DNA from: Actinomycetota bacterium
GTDB taxonomy: Bacteria > Actinomycetota > Acidimicrobiia > Acidimicrobiales > Ilumatobacteraceae
NCBI GenBank assembly: GCA_963169215.1
Contig: CAUJEE010000024.1
Location: 1-43,537 of the forward strand
Length of the DNA: 43,537 nt
Direction of reading: 5' to 3'
The position numbers were made by a program, and so were the translations under genes. Positions 2,173 through 9,629 of this stretch are shown piece after piece. Within the stretch, counting starts at the first letter, position 1, and each line of letters starts with the position of its first letter. The notes under the pieces were generated by a model. That model searched no databases. It saw only the letters and a list, made by a program, of their open reading frames with translations, and was not told where the DNA came from.

Positions 2173-3198
2173 GTGACCGATCGTTTCGAGATCCCCAAAG
2201 GCCTCACCGAGGCCGACGAGGCCCGCCACGCGCCCCCCGTGGGTGCCGAGGCCGGTTTGTTCGGCGACACCCTCTGGGTGAGCGTCGTCGACCCCGCAGC
2301 CAACGTCTTCGGCGTGCTGCACTGGCACCTCACCAACAAGGGTTTCGCCCGCCACGAGAGCTATTTCGTGCTCGACGGCGTGCAGCAGTCGTATGGCCTG
2401 CGCACCCCGCTCGACCCCGAGCCCGACAGCGGCCCGTGGGGTGACGGCGTGCTCAAGTACGAGGTGATCGACCCGTTCCACCACATCCGCATCACGATGG
2501 ACGGGCCGCGCTACGGCTTCGATCTCGACTTCACCGGTCGCTTCGCCCCGTTCGACTACCACGACTCGGTGCGTGGCGACCCCCTCGCTGTCGCCTTCCC
2601 CTTCCACGCCGGCCACTACGAGCAGGCGATGGACTGCAAGGGCACGTTCGAGTTCCGCGCCGGGCCGGCCAAGGGCGAGTCGCGCAAGATCGACTGCTGG
2701 TCGCACCGCGACCACACCTGGTCGGATCGCTTCGCGCAGGATCCCGAGTGGGACTTCGGTGGCGGTCATGTGCCCGGCCACTTCTGGCCCTCGATCCAAC
2801 TGCCCGACCGGCACATCAACGTGTTCGGCTTCTACTTCCAGGCGAAGATGGGCGACCCCAACGAGAAGGCGAGCATCGGCGGGTTCGAGTCGACCAAGGA
2901 CGGCAGCCGCCCGATCCTCAACGCCGCGGCCGAGATCCTCGACACCGAGGCCGATGGTGTGCGCGACTCGAAGACGTTCCGCTACGAGATCACCCTCCCC
3001 GACGGTGACGTGATCCACGTGCGCTCGACGAAGAAGCACGGCCAGATCAAGCTGTGGCTGCGCGGCGAGAACGAACTCGAGAACCGCATGGACTGCTACG
3101 AACCGTTCGTCGACTACCTGGTCGAGGAGACCGGCGAGGTCGGCACCGGCGTGTCGGAGTACAGCATCTTCCCGCCGCTCCCGCAATGGCTCGTGTGA
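2173..3198 (+). CDS. DUF7064/DUF7065-like (AttH/CrtC-like beta-barrel) protein
   Basis: 341 residues from GTG, with AGGAG at 2162-2166 as ribosome site. Rich in aromatic residues, Gly and Asp, with strand-like segments such as YGFDLDFTGRF, and conserved-looking DCWSHRDHTWSDR and GHFWPSIQLPDRHINVFGFYF stretches. No signal peptide or Rossmann motif. I associate this pattern with the DUF7064/DUF7065 pair, distantly lipocalin/AttH/hydroxyneurosporene-hydratase-like, which often sits in actinobacterial lipid or steroid catabolic clusters; that assignment is from memory. It leads an operon behind operator site A, and its stop overlaps the next start (TGATG), so the two are translationally coupled. 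A role in binding or hydrating an unsaturated hydrophobic substrate is speculation. Confidence 0.6.
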   Translation: MTDRFEIPKGLTEADEARHAPPVGAEAGLFGDTLWVSVVDPAANVFGVLHWHLTNKGFARHESYFVLDGVQQSYGLRTPLDPEPDSGPWGDGVLKYEVIDPFHHIRITMDGPRYGFDLDFTGRFAPFDYHDSVRGDPLAVAFPFHAGHYEQAMDCKGTFEFRAGPAKGESRKIDCWSHRDHTWSDRFAQDPEWDFGGGHVPGHFWPSIQLPDRHINVFGFYFQAKMGDPNEKASIGGFESTKDGSRPILNAAAEILDTEADGVRDSKTFRYEITLPDGDVIHVRSTKKHGQIKLWLRGENELENRMDCYEPFVDYLVEETGEVGTGVSEYSIFPPLPQWLV

Positions 3199-3950
3199 TG
3201 CGCTTCCAAGGGACAGTGGCGTGGGTCACGGGCGGGGCGTCGGGCATCGGCCTGGCCGCCGCGCAGCGATTCGCCGCCGAGGGGGCGCGGGTGGCGGTGA
3301 GCGACCTCAACGCCCCCGGCTGCGATGACGCTGTGGCTGCGATCACCGCCGCCGGTGGCTCGGCGATTGCCGTGCCGTGCGACGTGCGTTCGCTCGACGC
3401 GTGCGTAGCCGCGGTGGCCCGCATCGAGCAGGAGTGGGGTCGCCTCGATCACGTCTTCGCCAATGCGGGCGTGGTCGGCGCAGGTGGCATCGAGTTCACC
3501 AGCGAGGACGACTTCGCCGCGCTGATCGATGTCAACCTGGTCGGCGTGTTCCGCACCGCCAAGGCCGCGCTGCCGTTGATGCGCGGCTCCGACAGCGGCT
3601 CGATCGTCATCACCTCCAGCGTCGAGGGCCTCATCGGCAATGCGTTGCTGCCCGGATACAGCACGGCCAAGACCGCCCTTCTCGGCCTCACCCGCGCCCT
3701 CGCGGCCGAGGCGGCGCCGACGATCAGGGTCAACGCCGTCAACCCGGGTTACATCGAGTCGCCGATGACCGAGCCGGTGGCGCAGATGATGCCCGAGTTC
3801 AAGCAGGCCTGGGCGCAGAAGGCGCTGCTCGGGCGGGTGGGCACGGTCGACGACGTGGTCGGCGTGGTGCTCTTCTTGTGCAGCAGCGATGCAGCGTTCG
3901 TCACCGGCGAGAGCGTGGCGATCGACGGCGGAGCGGTGGCGGTTCGCTGA
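3198..3950 (+). CDS. SDR family oxidoreductase
   Basis: 250 residues; ATG at 3198 overlaps the previous TGA (an ATG at 3186 is possible but lies inside the upstream gene). Classical SDR: T-G-G-A-S-G-I-G at 11-18, N-A-G at 89-91, S140/S141, Y154-x3-K158, and the C-terminal GESVAIDGGA typical of FabG-like enzymes. NAD(P)-dependent oxidation of a hydroxy-acyl-CoA or alcohol is expected. It is a close paralogue of the SDR at 25355-26101: both share G-R-L-D, F-R-T-A-K-A-A-L-P, S-S-V-E-G-L and N-P-G-Y with M-T-E-P, suggesting duplicated enzymes for successive or parallel steps. Confidence 0.9.
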   Translation: MRFQGTVAWVTGGASGIGLAAAQRFAAEGARVAVSDLNAPGCDDAVAAITAAGGSAIAVPCDVRSLDACVAAVARIEQEWGRLDHVFANAGVVGAGGIEFTSEDDFAALIDVNLVGVFRTAKAALPLMRGSDSGSIVITSSVEGLIGNALLPGYSTAKTALLGLTRALAAEAAPTIRVNAVNPGYIESPMTEPVAQMMPEFKQAWAQKALLGRVGTVDDVVGVVLFLCSSDAAFVTGESVAIDGGAVAVR

Positions 3951-4351
3951 TGGGCGCGCTCGAAGAACTCCTCGACCGGATCGCGATCGCCGACGTGCTG
4001 GTGCGCTACGGCAGCAGCCTCGACGACAAGGACTGGGACCGCCTCGAATCGTGCTTCACCCCCGACGCGGTGGGCATCCTCGCCGGCGGGCCGCGGCTGG
4101 AGGGCTACCAGGCGATCCTCACCGCGGTACGCGACGCATTGGCGTACTACCCGGCGACACAGCACATGATCGCCAACCACGAGGTCGAACTCGACGGTGA
4201 CCGTGCTCGTCTGCGATCGAACCTGATCGCCACCCACGTGATCCCCGACGGAACCTTCACCGTGTTCGGTGTCTATCGCGAAGAGCTGGTGCGCACCCCC
4301 GAGGGGTGGCGCATCGTGCACCACCAGCTCGACGCCCAATGGCTCGGCTGA
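3950..4351 (+). CDS. SnoaL/NTF2-like protein
   Basis: 133 residues; ATG overlaps the SDR stop (TGATG). The opening LLDRIAIADVLVRYGSSLDDKDWDRLESCFTPDA is the standard SnoaL_4/NTF2 beginning (helix, then Y-x6-D-x2-D-W at the pocket), with a central Y-P-A-T-Q-H-M-I-A-N and a final WRIVHHQLDAQW. Such proteins are small single-domain isomerases, dehydratases or hydroxylase partners. Last gene of the first + operon, directly coupled to the SDR, so a shared substrate is likely. It differs from the SnoaL-like protein at 484 in lacking the basic tail. Confidence 0.85.
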   Translation: MGALEELLDRIAIADVLVRYGSSLDDKDWDRLESCFTPDAVGILAGGPRLEGYQAILTAVRDALAYYPATQHMIANHEVELDGDRARLRSNLIATHVIPDGTFTVFGVYREELVRTPEGWRIVHHQLDAQWLG

Positions 4352-4495
4352 GCTGCTTTCCGCTGCTCGACCGCAGAGTTCCTATCGGGGCTCGGGTGTC
4401 AGGTTCATTGCCTGAGGGATGTGGTGCGTTTCGACGGCTGATAACTGGAAGGGACGCGTTGCGTTGGCACCAACTTACGACTCATGCTCCCTTTC
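4352..4495. other. Intergenic left edge of the restriction-modification island
   Basis: 144 bases between the convergent SnoaL-like and restriction endonuclease genes. Base composition falls here relative to the flanking operon. TCAGG (4399-4403) and CCTGA (4411-4415) could pair over a seven-base loop; this is too weak to call a terminator. No insertion-sequence end or direct repeat matching the right edge (about 6931-7135) was found by eye. Confidence 0.4.
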
Positions 4496-4987
4496 TCACG
4501 TCAGTCGGTTTCCGATGTTCACGACGAACGTCAACGGAATCTTCGGATTGTTGATGTCCTTGCCGCCCTCGTTGTGCCACTTCGCCTCCCACTGTGAGAA
4601 CAGCGGTTCAAGCTGATCAGGCGTAAGCAGGTACACCTCTGCCAGCTCTATGTTGTCGTATATGGCGAAGATCCAGTCCACTGTCCGGTACTTGGCGATA
4701 ATCGTCGGGTTGAGGTGGTGGTGGGTCGAGAAGCCCTTCACTAGCTTGCGATTGAGGCTCTTGAGCTCGTACTCCCGGCCGAACTCATCACGTGCGTCGT
4801 TGCCTTCGCGTCCGGGCAGGTTCTCCAGCCCCAGCAGAATGAGTACCTGGAGGAGCTTCCCACCGTTGTCCTGGAAGATGTCGTTGATGCCTTCAGTCTC
4901 AGCGAGCTTCTGGTACTCCCGGATGAACGGCAGCAGCCGGCGCAGCTCGGCTGCGGTCGGCTTCTCCTTGAACTCGTGAGTGCTCAC
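4496..4987 (-). CDS. pvuIIR: PvuII-type type II restriction endonuclease
   Basis: 163 residues from a GTG at 4987-4985. The protein aligns along its whole length with R.PvuII (157 residues) as I remember it: [54 protein letters not shown] and KDINNPKIP are all present. The catalytic triad D64/E74/K76 corresponds to D58/E68/K70 of PvuII, and H89-H91 to the histidine cluster that reads the CAGCTG site. All active residues are intact, so an active homodimeric nuclease cutting CAGCTG is expected (family knowledge). It is divergent from the methyltransferase at 5182. No controller (C) gene overlaps its 5' end, unlike the classical PvuII system. The 60 bases at 4621-4680 contain only 31 G+C, consistent with horizontal acquisition. 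Confidence 0.93.
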
Positions 4988-5181
4988 CCGGCTTTCCGTC
5001 TCGTGGGTCGCGCAACTCCATCACAGCCATGTGGTAGGGCTACTGGGATGATCGAGCGCCCCGCCAACTCCCCCGAGCCGCGTGCGCTCCAGACGTCCCC
5101 GCTCATCGTGCCTGCCACGGCTGCTGAGGCTAGCCCTCGTGACACCAGGCACCCGGCATCTCCGCAGCTCAGGAGGCACTG
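4988..5181. promoter_or_regulatory. Divergent R/M intergenic region
   Basis: 194 bases separating the restriction and methyltransferase starts, which must hold both promoters. AGGAGG at 5171-5176 serves the methyltransferase ATG at 5182. I looked for the GACT-N-AGTC boxes used by PvuII-type controller proteins and for a small HTH gene, and saw neither. How expression is timed to avoid self-cutting is therefore not visible. Confidence 0.5.
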
Positions 5182-6930
5182 ATGTCACGCGCCAAGCTCC
5201 TCCCCCGGGATATCGAGGTCAAACGCAGCGACCCGATCTACATGGCGCACGCCTATCTCACCAAGGTGCCCGTCCCAGCGATCATTCCCTTCATCGAGAC
5301 CTTCACCGAACCCGGTGGTATCGTGGCCGACGTCTTTGCCGGCTCAGGTATGACCGGCGTTGCTGCCGTTGCCTGCGGCCGCAACGCCAAACTCAGCGAT
5401 GTGTCAGTTCTCGGCCAGCATATTGGTCGGGGCTACCTCAACCTAGTCGACTCAGGTCTGCTGCGGTCTACCGCCACGAAGGTGGTCGAGCAGACCTACG
5501 CCCGCCTTGGCGGCATCTACGGTGTTCGCTGCTCGGCGTGCACCCGCGAGGCCCTCCTCGCGAAGTCCGTGTGGAGCATGGTCTTCCGCTGCTCGAACTG
5601 CAAGGGAGCCGTCAACTTCTACGCCTCGCTCGAGGCCGCCGACTGGTACAAGTCGAAGATGCAGTGTCCACACTGCCAGGCGTCCTTTGGCAGCCGCTCG
5701 GAGCGGATAGGCGAGACGCCATGCGTCGACTTCATCGACTGCACCTGCTCCCGATCGCAGATCGAACAGCCAAGCTCCACGCCACTGGGCGAACCGTCTC
5801 TCGCAGGGCTGGAGGTTCCCGACCTCCCGATCGACGCCTCACGCCAGATGTACGTGGCATCTGCGCTCGGCCGAAATGGGTTCACCTCGACCGCGTCCTT
5901 CTTCTCTATGCGCAATCTGCAGGCGCTGACTGTTCTCCGCGATGAGATTCAGCAGGTGGACGATACGAATCTCTCTGCCAAGTTGTTCTTCGCCTTCACA
6001 GCGATCCTCTCTCGTGCCAGCAAGCGCTACCAGTGGTCGAAGGCCCGTCCTCTCAACGCCGCGAACGCCAACTACTACGTCGCTCCGGTCTTCTACGAGT
6101 GGAACGTTCTCGACCTGTTCGACCGCAAGGTCGACGCGATCATCAAGGCGAACGACTGGCTGCTCGACCAGCAGGGTGACGGCAGCCTCTTCGGAGCGAC
6201 TGTGACGTCTGCGGAGTACGTCCGCGCCTCAGCGGTGTCGCTGCCTTATCCGGACCATTCCATCGACTACGTCTTCACTGACCCGCCCTTCGGAAGCAAC
6301 ATCTTCTACGCCGACATGAACCTCTTCCATGAGGCATGGATCGGCGCGACCACCGCTCTTGAGGACGAGGCTGTCGTCGACCGCTCCAAGACCAGCGCCG
6401 ACTTCCGAGGCCCCGAGCGCTACGAGCGAATGCTCACCGACGCACTTCGTGAGTGCCGTAGAGTCCTCAAGCCTGGCGGCTACCTCAGCATGGTGTTCGG
6501 CAACAGCTCCGGCGCGGTCTGGTCGCTCATCCAGAGAGCCGTCGCTGCTGCTGACTTCGTTATTGAACCAGAGATGATCGCCACGCTCGACAAAGGTCAA
6601 CGCTCCGTCAAGGGCCTCGCCTCTGGCTTCGAGCACGTCGCCACTATCGATCTCATTCTGACCATGCGGGTCAGCGACAACACACCACGAGAACTGGTTC
6701 GCCCTGACCACGACGAAGTGCGGGCAGTCACTCGAGTGCTCGCACTCTCGGAGTCTCTCGACACGCCTAGCCATCTCTACGTCGCGCTCCTCCGAGCGGG
6801 CCTGCAGCGTGATTGGGATCTTGGATCGCTAGATCTGCGGGATGTCACCGCTGTGCTCTGCGACCTCGGCTACAGCGTCGATGAGAAGAGCGGGCGACTT
6901 ACTCGGACTGAAGATCGCCGTTCGTCGTAG
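5182..6930 (+). CDS. DNA methyltransferase with zinc-ribbon insert (COG1743-like)
   Basis: 582 residues, ATG with AGGAGG five bases upstream. Motif I (AdoMet binding) is D-V-F-A-G-S-G-M at 50-57 and the catalytic motif IV is T-D-P-P-F-G-S-N at 366-373, so the order is FxGxG then DPPF with about 310 residues between. That gap contains paired cysteines C117/C120, C137/C140, C162/C165 and C187/C189, suggesting one or two zinc ribbons. A late motif LKPGGYLSMVFGN near 430-440 is typical of amino-methyltransferases. This architecture matches the adenine-specific DNA methylase family with Zn ribbon (DUF1156/COG1743 type), not M.PvuII, which is a shorter N4-cytosine enzyme with an SPPY motif. Its position opposite the PvuII-type nuclease suggests it protects the same site, but this needs proof. 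Confidence 0.85.
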   Translation: MSRAKLLPRDIEVKRSDPIYMAHAYLTKVPVPAIIPFIETFTEPGGIVADVFAGSGMTGVAAVACGRNAKLSDVSVLGQHIGRGYLNLVDSGLLRSTATKVVEQTYARLGGIYGVRCSACTREALLAKSVWSMVFRCSNCKGAVNFYASLEAADWYKSKMQCPHCQASFGSRSERIGETPCVDFIDCTCSRSQIEQPSSTPLGEPSLAGLEVPDLPIDASRQMYVASALGRNGFTSTASFFSMRNLQALTVLRDEIQQVDDTNLSAKLFFAFTAILSRASKRYQWSKARPLNAANANYYVAPVFYEWNVLDLFDRKVDAIIKANDWLLDQQGDGSLFGATVTSAEYVRASAVSLPYPDHSIDYVFTDPPFGSNIFYADMNLFHEAWIGATTALEDEAVVDRSKTSADFRGPERYERMLTDALRECRRVLKPGGYLSMVFGNSSGAVWSLIQRAVAAADFVIEPEMIATLDKGQRSVKGLASGFEHVATIDLILTMRVSDNTPRELVRPDHDEVRAVTRVLALSESLDTPSHLYVALLRAGLQRDWDLGSLDLRDVTAVLCDLGYSVDEKSGRLTRTEDRRSS

Positions 6931-6956
6931 CACCTGCACCTAGTGCTCTGGTGGCT

Positions 6957-6981
6957 GCGGTCGCCTGGACGGAGCGACCGC
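6957..6981 (+). terminator. Possible terminator hairpin after the methyltransferase
   Basis: GCGGTCGC (6957-6964) and GCGACCGC (6974-6981) form a perfect 8-bp GC-rich stem with a 9-base loop, 26 bases after the methyltransferase stop. There is no T-tract after it, so factor-independent termination is uncertain. Confidence 0.45.
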
Positions 6982-7135
6982 GTTACGTCGGGAGTCTTCT
7001 GGTCGAGCCACGATGCACCGGTTGGCACTGAGGTGCGGGTGTTGCGGAGGGTGCGCCGCCAAGCTTGGGTGATGCGGTCGTGTTGCAGGGGTAGCTGTTC
7101 CAGCGCGGCCCGCCGGCAAGCACGTCCCGCGGGCG
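6982..7135. other. Intergenic right edge of the island, possible gene relic
   Basis: 154 bases between the hairpin and the end of the convergent SDR. On the minus strand about 50 codons are open without a stop (reading from about 7110 to 6955, including LEQLPLQHDRITQAWRRTL). There is no start, ribosome site or recognised domain, so this may be the remnant of a gene broken when the island inserted, or chance. Confidence 0.3.
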
Positions 7136-7927
7136 CTACTTGACGACTTGGTCCGACCAGCGCGGGCCGACGCTCTCGCCGCCGTCGACGGTGATCGCCT
7201 GGCCGTTGACCCATTCGCCGTCGTCGCTGGCCAGCCAGGTGGCCGCGGCGGCGATGTCTTCGGGGCTGCCGGGGCGCGGGTAGGGGCGCATCGAGGCGGT
7301 CGCCTCTTTCATCATGTCGGAGTGCTCTTCGCCGAGCCCGAGCGCGCCGAGCACCAGCGGGGTGACGATGCCGCCTGGGCAGATCGCGTTCACCCGGATG
7401 CGTTGCTCGCCGAGTTCGAGCGAAACCCGCTGGGTGAGGTGCACGACCGCAGCCTTGGCCGTGCCGTACACGTGCGGGCCGTTGCCGGGGGTGAAGGCGG
7501 CGATGCTGGCCATGCTGATGATCGACCCACCCTCGCCCTGGTCGACCATCACCCGGCCGGCCGAGCGGATGCCGAAGAAGACGCTGTTCAACAGCAGGCT
7601 CATCGTCGCGCCCCACTCGTCGGGGGTGATGTCGAGGATCGAGCCGCGGGCGCCCACCGCACCGGCGTTGTTCACCATGATGTCGAGGCGGCCCCACTCG
7701 GCGGGGGCGGTGCGCACCAACGCTTCGATATCGTCGGCGCGGGTGACGTCGCAGTGGCGGAAGCGAGCCGAGTCGCCGAGGCTGTCGGCCACCTCCTGGC
7801 CGGCCTCGTCGGCGATGTCGCCGATGACCACGCGCGCCCCTTCGGCGACGAAGCGACGTGCGATCGCCCGGCCGAGACCACTCGACCCACCGGTGACAAC
7901 CGCCACCTTGCCATCGAGCTTGCCCAT
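7136..7927 (-). CDS. SDR family oxidoreductase
   Basis: 263 residues, ATG preceded by a GAGGAT ribosome site in the 22-base gap to the upstream ligase gene. T-G-G-S-S-G-L-G at 12-19, N-N-A-G at 86-89, S141 and Y154-x3-K158 define a classical FabG-like SDR; GQAITVDGGES closes the fold. It ends the eleven-gene minus operon, so it probably oxidises a hydroxyacyl-CoA or alcohol intermediate with NAD(P)+. It belongs to a different subgroup from the SDR pair at 3198 and 25355 (NNAG, no FRTAKAALP motif). Confidence 0.9.
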   Translation of the reverse strand: MGKLDGKVAVVTGGSSGLGRAIARRFVAEGARVVIGDIADEAGQEVADSLGDSARFRHCDVTRADDIEALVRTAPAEWGRLDIMVNNAGAVGARGSILDITPDEWGATMSLLLNSVFFGIRSAGRVMVDQGEGGSIISMASIAAFTPGNGPHVYGTAKAAVVHLTQRVSLELGEQRIRVNAICPGGIVTPLVLGALGLGEEHSDMMKEATASMRPYPRPGSPEDIAAAATWLASDDGEWVNGQAITVDGGESVGPRWSDQVVK

Positions 7928-7949
7928 TGGATCCTCCTCAGTGTGTGGT

Positions 7950-9629
7950 TCAGTTCGTTGTCACCACCGGGCCGAGCCCGGCGTCGATCGCCTCGATCAA
8001 CCGCTCTCGCAGTTCTTGCTTGCGCACCTTGCCGCTGCCGGTCATCGGCACCGCCGCTTGCGCGAGCACCAGCACGGCCTGCGGGCGCTTGTAGCCCGCC
8101 AGCGCGTCGCGGCAGAAGTCGTCGAACGCGGTCGAGTCGAAGCTGTCGCCGGCGGCGGGGACGACGGCCGCGCCCACCACCTCGCCGCGGTCACCGCCGG
8201 GCAGGGCGAAGACGTAGGCCGAGGCGACGCCCGGGGCGCGGGCGAGGGTGGCCTCCACGTCGGCCGGGCTGACGTTGATGCCGCCGGTCTTGATCACGTC
8301 CTTGATGCGCTGCTCGTAGTGCACCCGCCCGTCGATGTCGACATGGCCGAGGTCGCCGGTGCGGAAGAAGCCGTCGACGGTGAAGGTGTCCGCCGGGTCG
8401 ACCTTGTAGTAGCCACGCATCAGTCGCGGGCCCTTCACCTGCAACTCGCCGCTGACGCCGGCATCGACCGGTTCGCCACTGATCGGGTCGACGACGCGCA
8501 ACTCGTTGCCGGGCAGCAGGAAGCCCTGGGTGTGCATGCGCACGTCGAGCGGGTCGGATGCGTGCGTGCACGAGAACGCAGTGGCGGTCTCGGTCATGCC
8601 GTACATGTTCACGCCGCCGAGGCCGTCGGCCGGTGGCTGCGCGCACAGCACGTCGTAGGGGGCGGTGCCCTTGTGCAGGCGGCTGTGGTCGCGCGTCGCC
8701 CAGTCGGCGTGGGTGAGCAGCTGTTGCAGTTGATGTGGCCAGATGTGCCAGGTGGTGGCCCCCTCGCGCTCGATCAGTTCGAGGGCCACGCCGGCATCGA
8801 GGTTCGGCTGCAGGATCAGCGCCGCGCCGTGCGACAGGGTGCCGAGCATCACGTTGATGCAACCGGCAGAGAAGAACAGGGGGAAGTAGAACCACACCAC
8901 GTCTTCTGGCAGCAGGCCCTGGTAGCGGCCGATCAGGTGGCCGTTACCGGCAACGGCGCGGTGGGGGAGCAGCACGCCCTTGGGGCGGGCGGTGGTGCCG
9001 GAAGTGGTGAGCAGGAAGCAGTCGTCGCCGGCAACGACAGCTTCGGTCAACGCGCGCGTCACGCTGCTGGGCACCGCCTCGCCGCGGGCGAGCCACTGCG
9101 CCCACGGCGTGCAGCACGCGGGCAGGTCGCCCTCGCCGCTGACGGTGACACTGCGCAGCGCCGGCATCTCGGCGAGGTACAGAGGGCCTGGCCACGCTTG
9201 CGCCACCCCGGGTACGGTCTTGGTGAGCAACTCGAGGTAGTCGCGCCCGAGGAACTGGCGCGACATGAACAGGTGCTCGATGTCGGCATGGCGCAGGTGG
9301 TACTCGAGGTCGTCACCGTGCACAAAGGTGCTGATCGGCGCGAGCAGGGCGCCGATGCTGGTGGCGCCGAGCGCGAACGCCACCCACTCCGGGCCGTTCT
9401 CCATCAGCAGGCCGACGCGGCTGCCCTTGCCCACGCCGGAGGCGACGAGCGCCCGTGCATGGCGATCGGCCTCGGCGGCCAGCTCGCGGTACGTCCAGCG
9501 CGCGTCGTGGGTGACCAGCGCGGTGCGGTCGGCGAACTGCGCGCAACTGCGGGCCATGAGTGCGGGCAGCGTCGCGGGTAGCGCCTCCTCGACTTCCGCC
9601 GGGCCACCCGGCGCGGGGCGATCAGACAA
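7950..9629 (-). CDS. AMP-forming acyl-CoA ligase (class I adenylate-forming)
   Basis: 559 residues from a TTG at 9629-9627 that overlaps the preceding stop; AGGAGGAGG six bases upstream decides this start over longer frames. The P-loop LLTTSGTTARPKG, YGMTETAT, FRTGDLG, KTGGINVSP and the C-terminal G-S-G-K-V-R-K (catalytic lysine) are all intact. It activates a carboxylic acid as acyl-AMP and then acyl-CoA in the cytosol. Directly coupled to the fused CoA-transferase, it is the second ligase of this operon (the other is at 20483). The two are divergent in sequence, so they probably act on different acids, for example the parent compound and a released side-chain or ring fragment (inference). 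Confidence 0.93.
   Translation of the reverse strand: MSDRPAPGGPAEVEEALPATLPALMARSCAQFADRTALVTHDARWTYRELAAEADRHARALVASGVGKGSRVGLLMENGPEWVAFALGATSIGALLAPISTFVHGDDLEYHLRHADIEHLFMSRQFLGRDYLELLTKTVPGVAQAWPGPLYLAEMPALRSVTVSGEGDLPACCTPWAQWLARGEAVPSSVTRALTEAVVAGDDCFLLTTSGTTARPKGVLLPHRAVAGNGHLIGRYQGLLPEDVVWFYFPLFFSAGCINVMLGTLSHGAALILQPNLDAGVALELIEREGATTWHIWPHQLQQLLTHADWATRDHSRLHKGTAPYDVLCAQPPADGLGGVNMYGMTETATAFSCTHASDPLDVRMHTQGFLLPGNELRVVDPISGEPVDAGVSGELQVKGPRLMRGYYKVDPADTFTVDGFFRTGDLGHVDIDGRVHYEQRIKDVIKTGGINVSPADVEATLARAPGVASAYVFALPGGDRGEVVGAAVVPAAGDSFDSTAFDDFCRDALAGYKRPQAVLVLAQAAVPMTGSGKVRKQELRERLIEAIDAGLGPVVTTN

Follow-up and report, generated by a model that had tools for sequence, protein, structure and literature searches.

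The window, by which we mean the whole stretch of 43,537 nucleotides analysed here, contains two divergently oriented genes separated by 194 bp. The left gene (4496-4987, reverse strand, GTG start) encodes a 163 amino acid protein of the PvuII family of restriction endonucleases. It matches PF09225 with 214.1 bits (gathering score 25; E-value 1.3e-63) and shares 61% identity with R.PvuII of Proteus hauseri (locus L053), which is a textbook laboratory enzyme. The gene has no frameshift. All 13 residues that were checked (D34, E55, D58, E68, K70, S81, H83, H84, H85, Y94, N140, N141 and K143 in PvuII numbering) are conserved, including the catalytic residues D58, E68 and K70 and the recognition residues D34, S81, H83-85, N140, N141 and K143. 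The full set of PvuII residues reported in the initial annotation is therefore confirmed. Since the protein is this similar to R.PvuII and has kept all residues checked, CAGCTG is the expected target, and the predicted nuclease is almost certainly aimed at the same site as PvuII.

The right gene (5182-6930, forward strand) is preceded by an AGGAGG ribosome site and encodes a PglXI/BrxXI-like DNA amino-methyltransferase of 582 amino acids. PADLOC assigns it to MTase_II (PDLC03312, E 1e-93 over residues 7-564) and to PglXI (PDLC02541, E 1e-75), and the Pfam match is N6_N4_Mtase. The SAM-binding motif I, DVFAGSGMTG, starts with D50 (residues 50-59; 5329-5358, forward strand) and has the form DxFxGSGMTG in nearly all aligned relatives, including the BREX-3 enzymes. 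The catalytic motif IV, TDPPF (residues 366-370; 6277-6291, forward strand), is invariant among nine aligned PglX-like enzymes. Alignments of relatives reveal a cysteine ribbon between the two motifs (C117/C120, C137/C140, C162/C165 and C187/C189; 5530-5748, forward strand). The inner four cysteines, C137/C140/C162/C165, are invariant in the nine PglX-like enzymes, again including those of BREX-3, and the flanking pairs (117/120 and 187/189) are present in most of the ten-member clade described below, where the enzyme of genome G982 lacks C120. The succession of motif I, Cys-rich ribbon and DPPF had already been noted, and an alignment with three BREX-3 enzymes shows the same order there: DxFxGSGMTG, a VWS...CxxC...CPxC ribbon and DPPFGxN.

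An AlphaFold2 model of the methyltransferase built from 19 sequences (pLDDT 85.5, pTM 0.88) has a Rossmann methyltransferase core. Structural matches extend over approximately residues 14-499, of which some 170 are aligned (Z up to 16.8, rmsd 2.6), and such a spread indicates a split core, consistent with a large insert. This insert (residues ~110-340; 5509-6201, forward strand) is the presumptive target recognition domain (TRD), and the layout is that of the BrxXI insert-TRD (PMC12839542). It contains segments conserved across the methyltransferase clade (ASKRYQW..RPLNAAN..YYVAP). The closest solved structures are RNA and small-molecule methyltransferases, which have the Rossmann core in common and are uninformative on the DNA target. 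By homology, the protein is a stand-alone BREX-3 PglXI/BrxXI-like enzyme. It resembles M.PvuII around the motif I region only; the initial annotation was thus right that it is not of the M.PvuII type, but the SPPY motif which it ascribed to M.PvuII has to be corrected, as M.PvuII has TSPPF (L053).

The target of the nuclease is present in the host, as had been pointed out: CAGCTG was found 18 times in the window, which is chance level (16.9 expected), and approximately 948 times in the genome (G000). The density of 341 sites per Mb compares with 325 and 370 in two congeners. No avoidance of CAGCTG was seen in the window, in the genome or relative to the congeners, and active cutting would therefore require protection. 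An M.PvuII homologue elsewhere in the genome, regarded in the initial annotation as a counter-argument to its reading, was searched for, and none was found in the 94%-complete assembly, either at the locus or elsewhere. The best match is an SPPY methyltransferase of 467 amino acids with a C-terminal extension on contig C175 (L074), which scores 33.7 bits and is 43% identical to M.PvuII over 63 residues. This similarity and the completeness of the assembly (94%) would leave room for an active nuclease whose site is protected by another methyltransferase of the genome. However, the C175 enzyme is conserved in the lineage (30 of 41 relatives), whereas PF09225 occurs in only one of 395 genomes of the class, and genuine M.PvuII partners mostly share 58-77% identity with M.PvuII along the full length. 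The C175 enzyme was set aside as CAGCTG protector because of its conservation in the lineage, and we consider protection by any other enzyme of the genome very improbable. On contig C180 (L076) the genome also has a DNA methyltransferase ORF that is divergent from a helicase-like ORF, possibly another defence system.

In other genomes, one scan of the genome-contig collection yielded 69 loci of the PvuII type. Of these, 67 have an M.PvuII homologue, and at the other two the nuclease sits at a contig end; a C-protein homologue was found at 62. A methyltransferase of the window type was not found beside the nuclease at any of the 69 loci, so that the pairing with a canonical PvuII nuclease is seen in one genome only. 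Together with the lack of M.PvuII in the genome, this upholds the earlier proposal of a new R-M pairing; the enzyme itself is not of an unknown methyltransferase type but BREX-3 PglXI/BrxXI-like. Four viral contigs have the M/C/R arrangement of PvuII. Five phage records of ~146-150 kb (L141 = MN602268.1, Bacteriophage DSS3_MAL1, and four related ones) encode a PvuII-like nuclease with 44-47% identity to that of the window. In the one phage locus of the five that was examined, helicase and DNA polymerase genes are found close to the nuclease gene, and no methyltransferase is annotated within ~4 kb.

The methyltransferase has relatives beside nucleases of the same superfamily. In the class of genome G446 such relatives occur in three of 299 genomes (G446, G884 and G982), and all three adjoin a PF09225-type nuclease. 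The pair thus recurs in other genomes with a divergent nuclease, whereas with the canonical one it was not found again. The three methyltransferases are 51-52% identical to that of the window over aligned columns (53% by tblastn). The gene order is M, C, R in G884, as in PvuII, M then R in G446, and R then M in G982. Their nucleases share 27-34% identity with the PvuII type and retain D58, E68, K70 and NNPK, while HHH is changed to SRA or SRY and D34 to N. Owing to these replacements, the three nucleases may recognise a site other than CAGCTG, and more than one specificity might accordingly exist within the methyltransferase clade.

In the class of the window, eight other genomes encode the methyltransferase with 55-61% identity by tblastn; it is full-length in G215, G322, G387, G320, G383, G305 and G075 and decayed in G209. 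L107/L170 was set aside as a broken methyltransferase fragment. In each of the eight genomes the gene is divergent from one for a protein of ~500 amino acids with CxxC and HEAT motifs. A profile search for this protein returned those eight genomes and one contig-end fragment, and did not detect it in the window genome. There, the sole PF09225 nuclease of the 395 genomes lies 194 bp from the methyltransferase instead. The CxxC+HEAT protein (L112:4341-5855 and homologues in L108-L114 and L118) is uncharacterised and strictly linked to the methyltransferase clade in the sampled class. It has invariant PD...E residues near the CxxC pair, which hint at a nuclease, and it is a candidate for a new restriction endonuclease family. 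Both G215 and G209 have a C.PvuII-like gene between the methyltransferase and the HEAT gene. In these two genomes and in G387 the HEAT gene is broken, which might be due to assembly errors.

Three types of partner around one methyltransferase clade, one of them with altered recognition residues, could also mean that the site recognised by the methyltransferase is shorter or degenerate and lies within CAGCTG (e.g., AGCT). Protection of CAGCTG would then be a by-product, and the breadth of methylation would admit nucleases of differing specificity. The insert segments conserved throughout the clade fit one fixed hexamer equally well, though, and we regard a shorter site as unlikely.

Methyltransferases of this kind were also observed in other settings. 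A full-length orphan relative with 54% identity is encoded on a phage contig (L138:5001-6746, also L139; IMGVR_UViG_3300037133_000102 and 3300037134_000092), where it lies amid apparent structural genes and has no adjacent nuclease; it may serve the phage as protection against such R-M systems. Relatives of the HEAT protein or of the divergent PF09225 nuclease were not found on viral contigs. Three loci (L115, L116 and L117 in G241, G026 and G075) have tandem PglXI-like methyltransferases followed by a third ORF; this ORF was tested in two of them and encodes an MTaX1 (PF20296) protein in both. In L140, two PglXI-like methyltransferase domains and an HTH are fused in a single ORF of 1309 amino acids.

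The intergenic region of the window pair (4988-5181, no strand assigned) contains neither a controller gene nor a remnant of one, in agreement with the initial annotation: the 194 bp have no ORF for a C protein, and three C proteins used as tblastn queries had no match in 4301-5400. A simple C-box pattern did not match the gap either, a weak negative because the pattern also missed the DNA upstream of three known C genes. No sigma-70-like promoter was matched in 4988-5181. A nuclease can still be expressed when C is lost: in the Csp231I system, deletion of C left nuclease activity high, with a fitness cost (PMC4824078). The lack of a controller gene and of a recognisable promoter would suit a non-functional pair with a silent or inactive nuclease and a methyltransferase that modifies some unrelated sequence, either on its own or, in the past, together with a partner since lost (the CxxC+HEAT protein, for instance); the orphan copy in phage and the decayed appearance of the HEAT genes in G387, G215 and G209 would suit it too. 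The window nuclease, however, has all 13 checked residues intact and no frameshift, and PF09225 nucleases recur beside the clade in three further genomes. A non-functional pair therefore appears quite unlikely.

The GC content is 57.7% in the nuclease gene and 61.7% in the methyltransferase gene, against 67-70% in the flanks, and the methyltransferase is present in one of 15 genomes of the genus. Based on these two observations the cassette looks acquired. An empty-site comparison with congeners gave DNA matches of 26-27 bp only. The flanking genes, as far as the ORFs were inspected, apparently encode dehydrogenases and an NTF2-like protein.

In a midpoint-rooted methyltransferase tree that included tandem enzymes and those of BREX-3, support for the ten-member clade is 100/100. 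The window enzyme is sister to the HEAT-associated group (98/100 for the seven), and the three PF09225-associated enzymes lie outside the window enzyme and the HEAT group, their placement being without resolution. The nuclease of the window falls within the canonical group in the nuclease tree, not within the divergent PF09225 subtype; it sits on a long branch at the base of that group, where its placement is likewise without resolution. As the nuclease is canonical and the methyltransferase is placed in this way, at least one exchange of nucleases is the simplest account.

Our preferred reading, which we hold to be probable, is that the divergent pair is a working Type II R-M system at CAGCTG, in which the BrxXI-like enzyme protects, probably by m6A, and that a single methyltransferase lineage has changed its nuclease partners. 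The PvuII-type dimer would cut unmodified CAGCTG, and the ~948 sites of the host would be protected by the BrxXI-like methyltransferase and not by an N4-cytosine enzyme of the M.PvuII type. The Cys-ribbon insert in the Rossmann core presumably reads the site. The nuclease slot would be exchanged while the methyltransferase stays, the partner being a divergent PvuII-superfamily nuclease or the CxxC+HEAT protein. We infer that nuclease and methyltransferase act on the same site from their linkage, from the substitution of partners and from the lack of another protector. A cell can tolerate such an exchange only if the methylation already in place shields its DNA from the new nuclease, and this is the main argument that the methyltransferase would cover CAGCTG.

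The established product of M.PvuII at CAGCTG is m4C. M.SenA46IV of Salmonella is also listed as m4C at this site (PMC4490842). A DPP[YF] motif alone does not separate m6A from m4C, but BrxXI is described as an adenine methylase (PMC12839542), and motif IV DPPF together with this kinship favours m6A. The product would most likely be N6-methyladenine, formed on the one adenine that each strand of the site contains (C-m6A-GCTG). Where the initial annotation suggested a possible new methylation chemistry, this would be a known chemistry on an unusual base for CAGCTG. A more far-reaching version is tentative and rather doubtful: this would be a natural PvuII system protected by N6-adenine methylation through a stand-alone BREX-3-related methyltransferase, in whose clade the nuclease slot is filled by non-homologous or strongly diverged nucleases of the same specificity, with the CxxC+HEAT protein as an unrelated CAGCTG endonuclease.

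If the preferred reading is true, a recognition module of the BREX type can work in a Type II system with a simple palindromic site. It counts against this reading that BREX systems are described as reading non-palindromic sites of 6 bp (PMC11341690). The pair would also offer a handle on the specificity of the BREX-3 methyltransferase family, whose insert-TRD has been reported to have no homologue outside BREX (PMC12839542). Nuclease exchange around one methyltransferase would be documented, and the target of the CxxC+HEAT protein would become directly testable.

Compared with known systems, the pair shares with the PvuII R-M system of Proteus (R/C/M.PvuII) a canonical R.PvuII-type nuclease and the divergent order of R and M, but it has neither an N4-cytosine methyltransferase of the M.PvuII family nor a C gene. 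With BREX-3 PglXI/BrxXI the methyltransferase shares the order of motif I, large insert with four-Cys finger and DPPF, at 26-33% identity over ~470 residues; among the plasmid relatives examined in this range are members of BREX-3 operons that also encode PglZ and a DUF6079 protein, two of them with a helicase as well. BrxXI has an insert of ~250 residues between core strands with a four-cysteine finger, followed by a C-terminal HTH region (PMC12839542). In contrast, the window enzyme is 582 instead of ~920 amino acids long and ends ~85 residues past the Rossmann core, which leaves no room for the C-terminal segment of ~280-300 residues with three HTH domains. It also differs from BREX in lying beside a Type II nuclease with no BREX genes adjoining: inspection of 2500-9500 revealed no genes for PglZ, a BrxC-like ATPase or a helicase, and the long ORFs resemble dehydrogenase and CoA-ligase. 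The likeness to DUF1156 methyltransferases, an anti-phage, BREX-related family, is weak (residues 229-458; NF042963, E 1e-8), and the score of 33.9 bits is far below the curated cut-off of 1000. The Type II loci of G446, G884 and G982 have a homologous methyltransferase (51-53%) next to a PvuII-superfamily nuclease but differ in the nuclease itself, with its likely altered or other specificity, and in the C gene of G884. The CxxC+HEAT loci have a methyltransferase of the same clade (54-60% identity) and a divergent partner gene, but the partner is a putative nuclease of another kind, and two of them carry a C-like gene. We would classify the system as a Type II R-M variant whose pairing is uncommon and, at the level of the family, recurrent.
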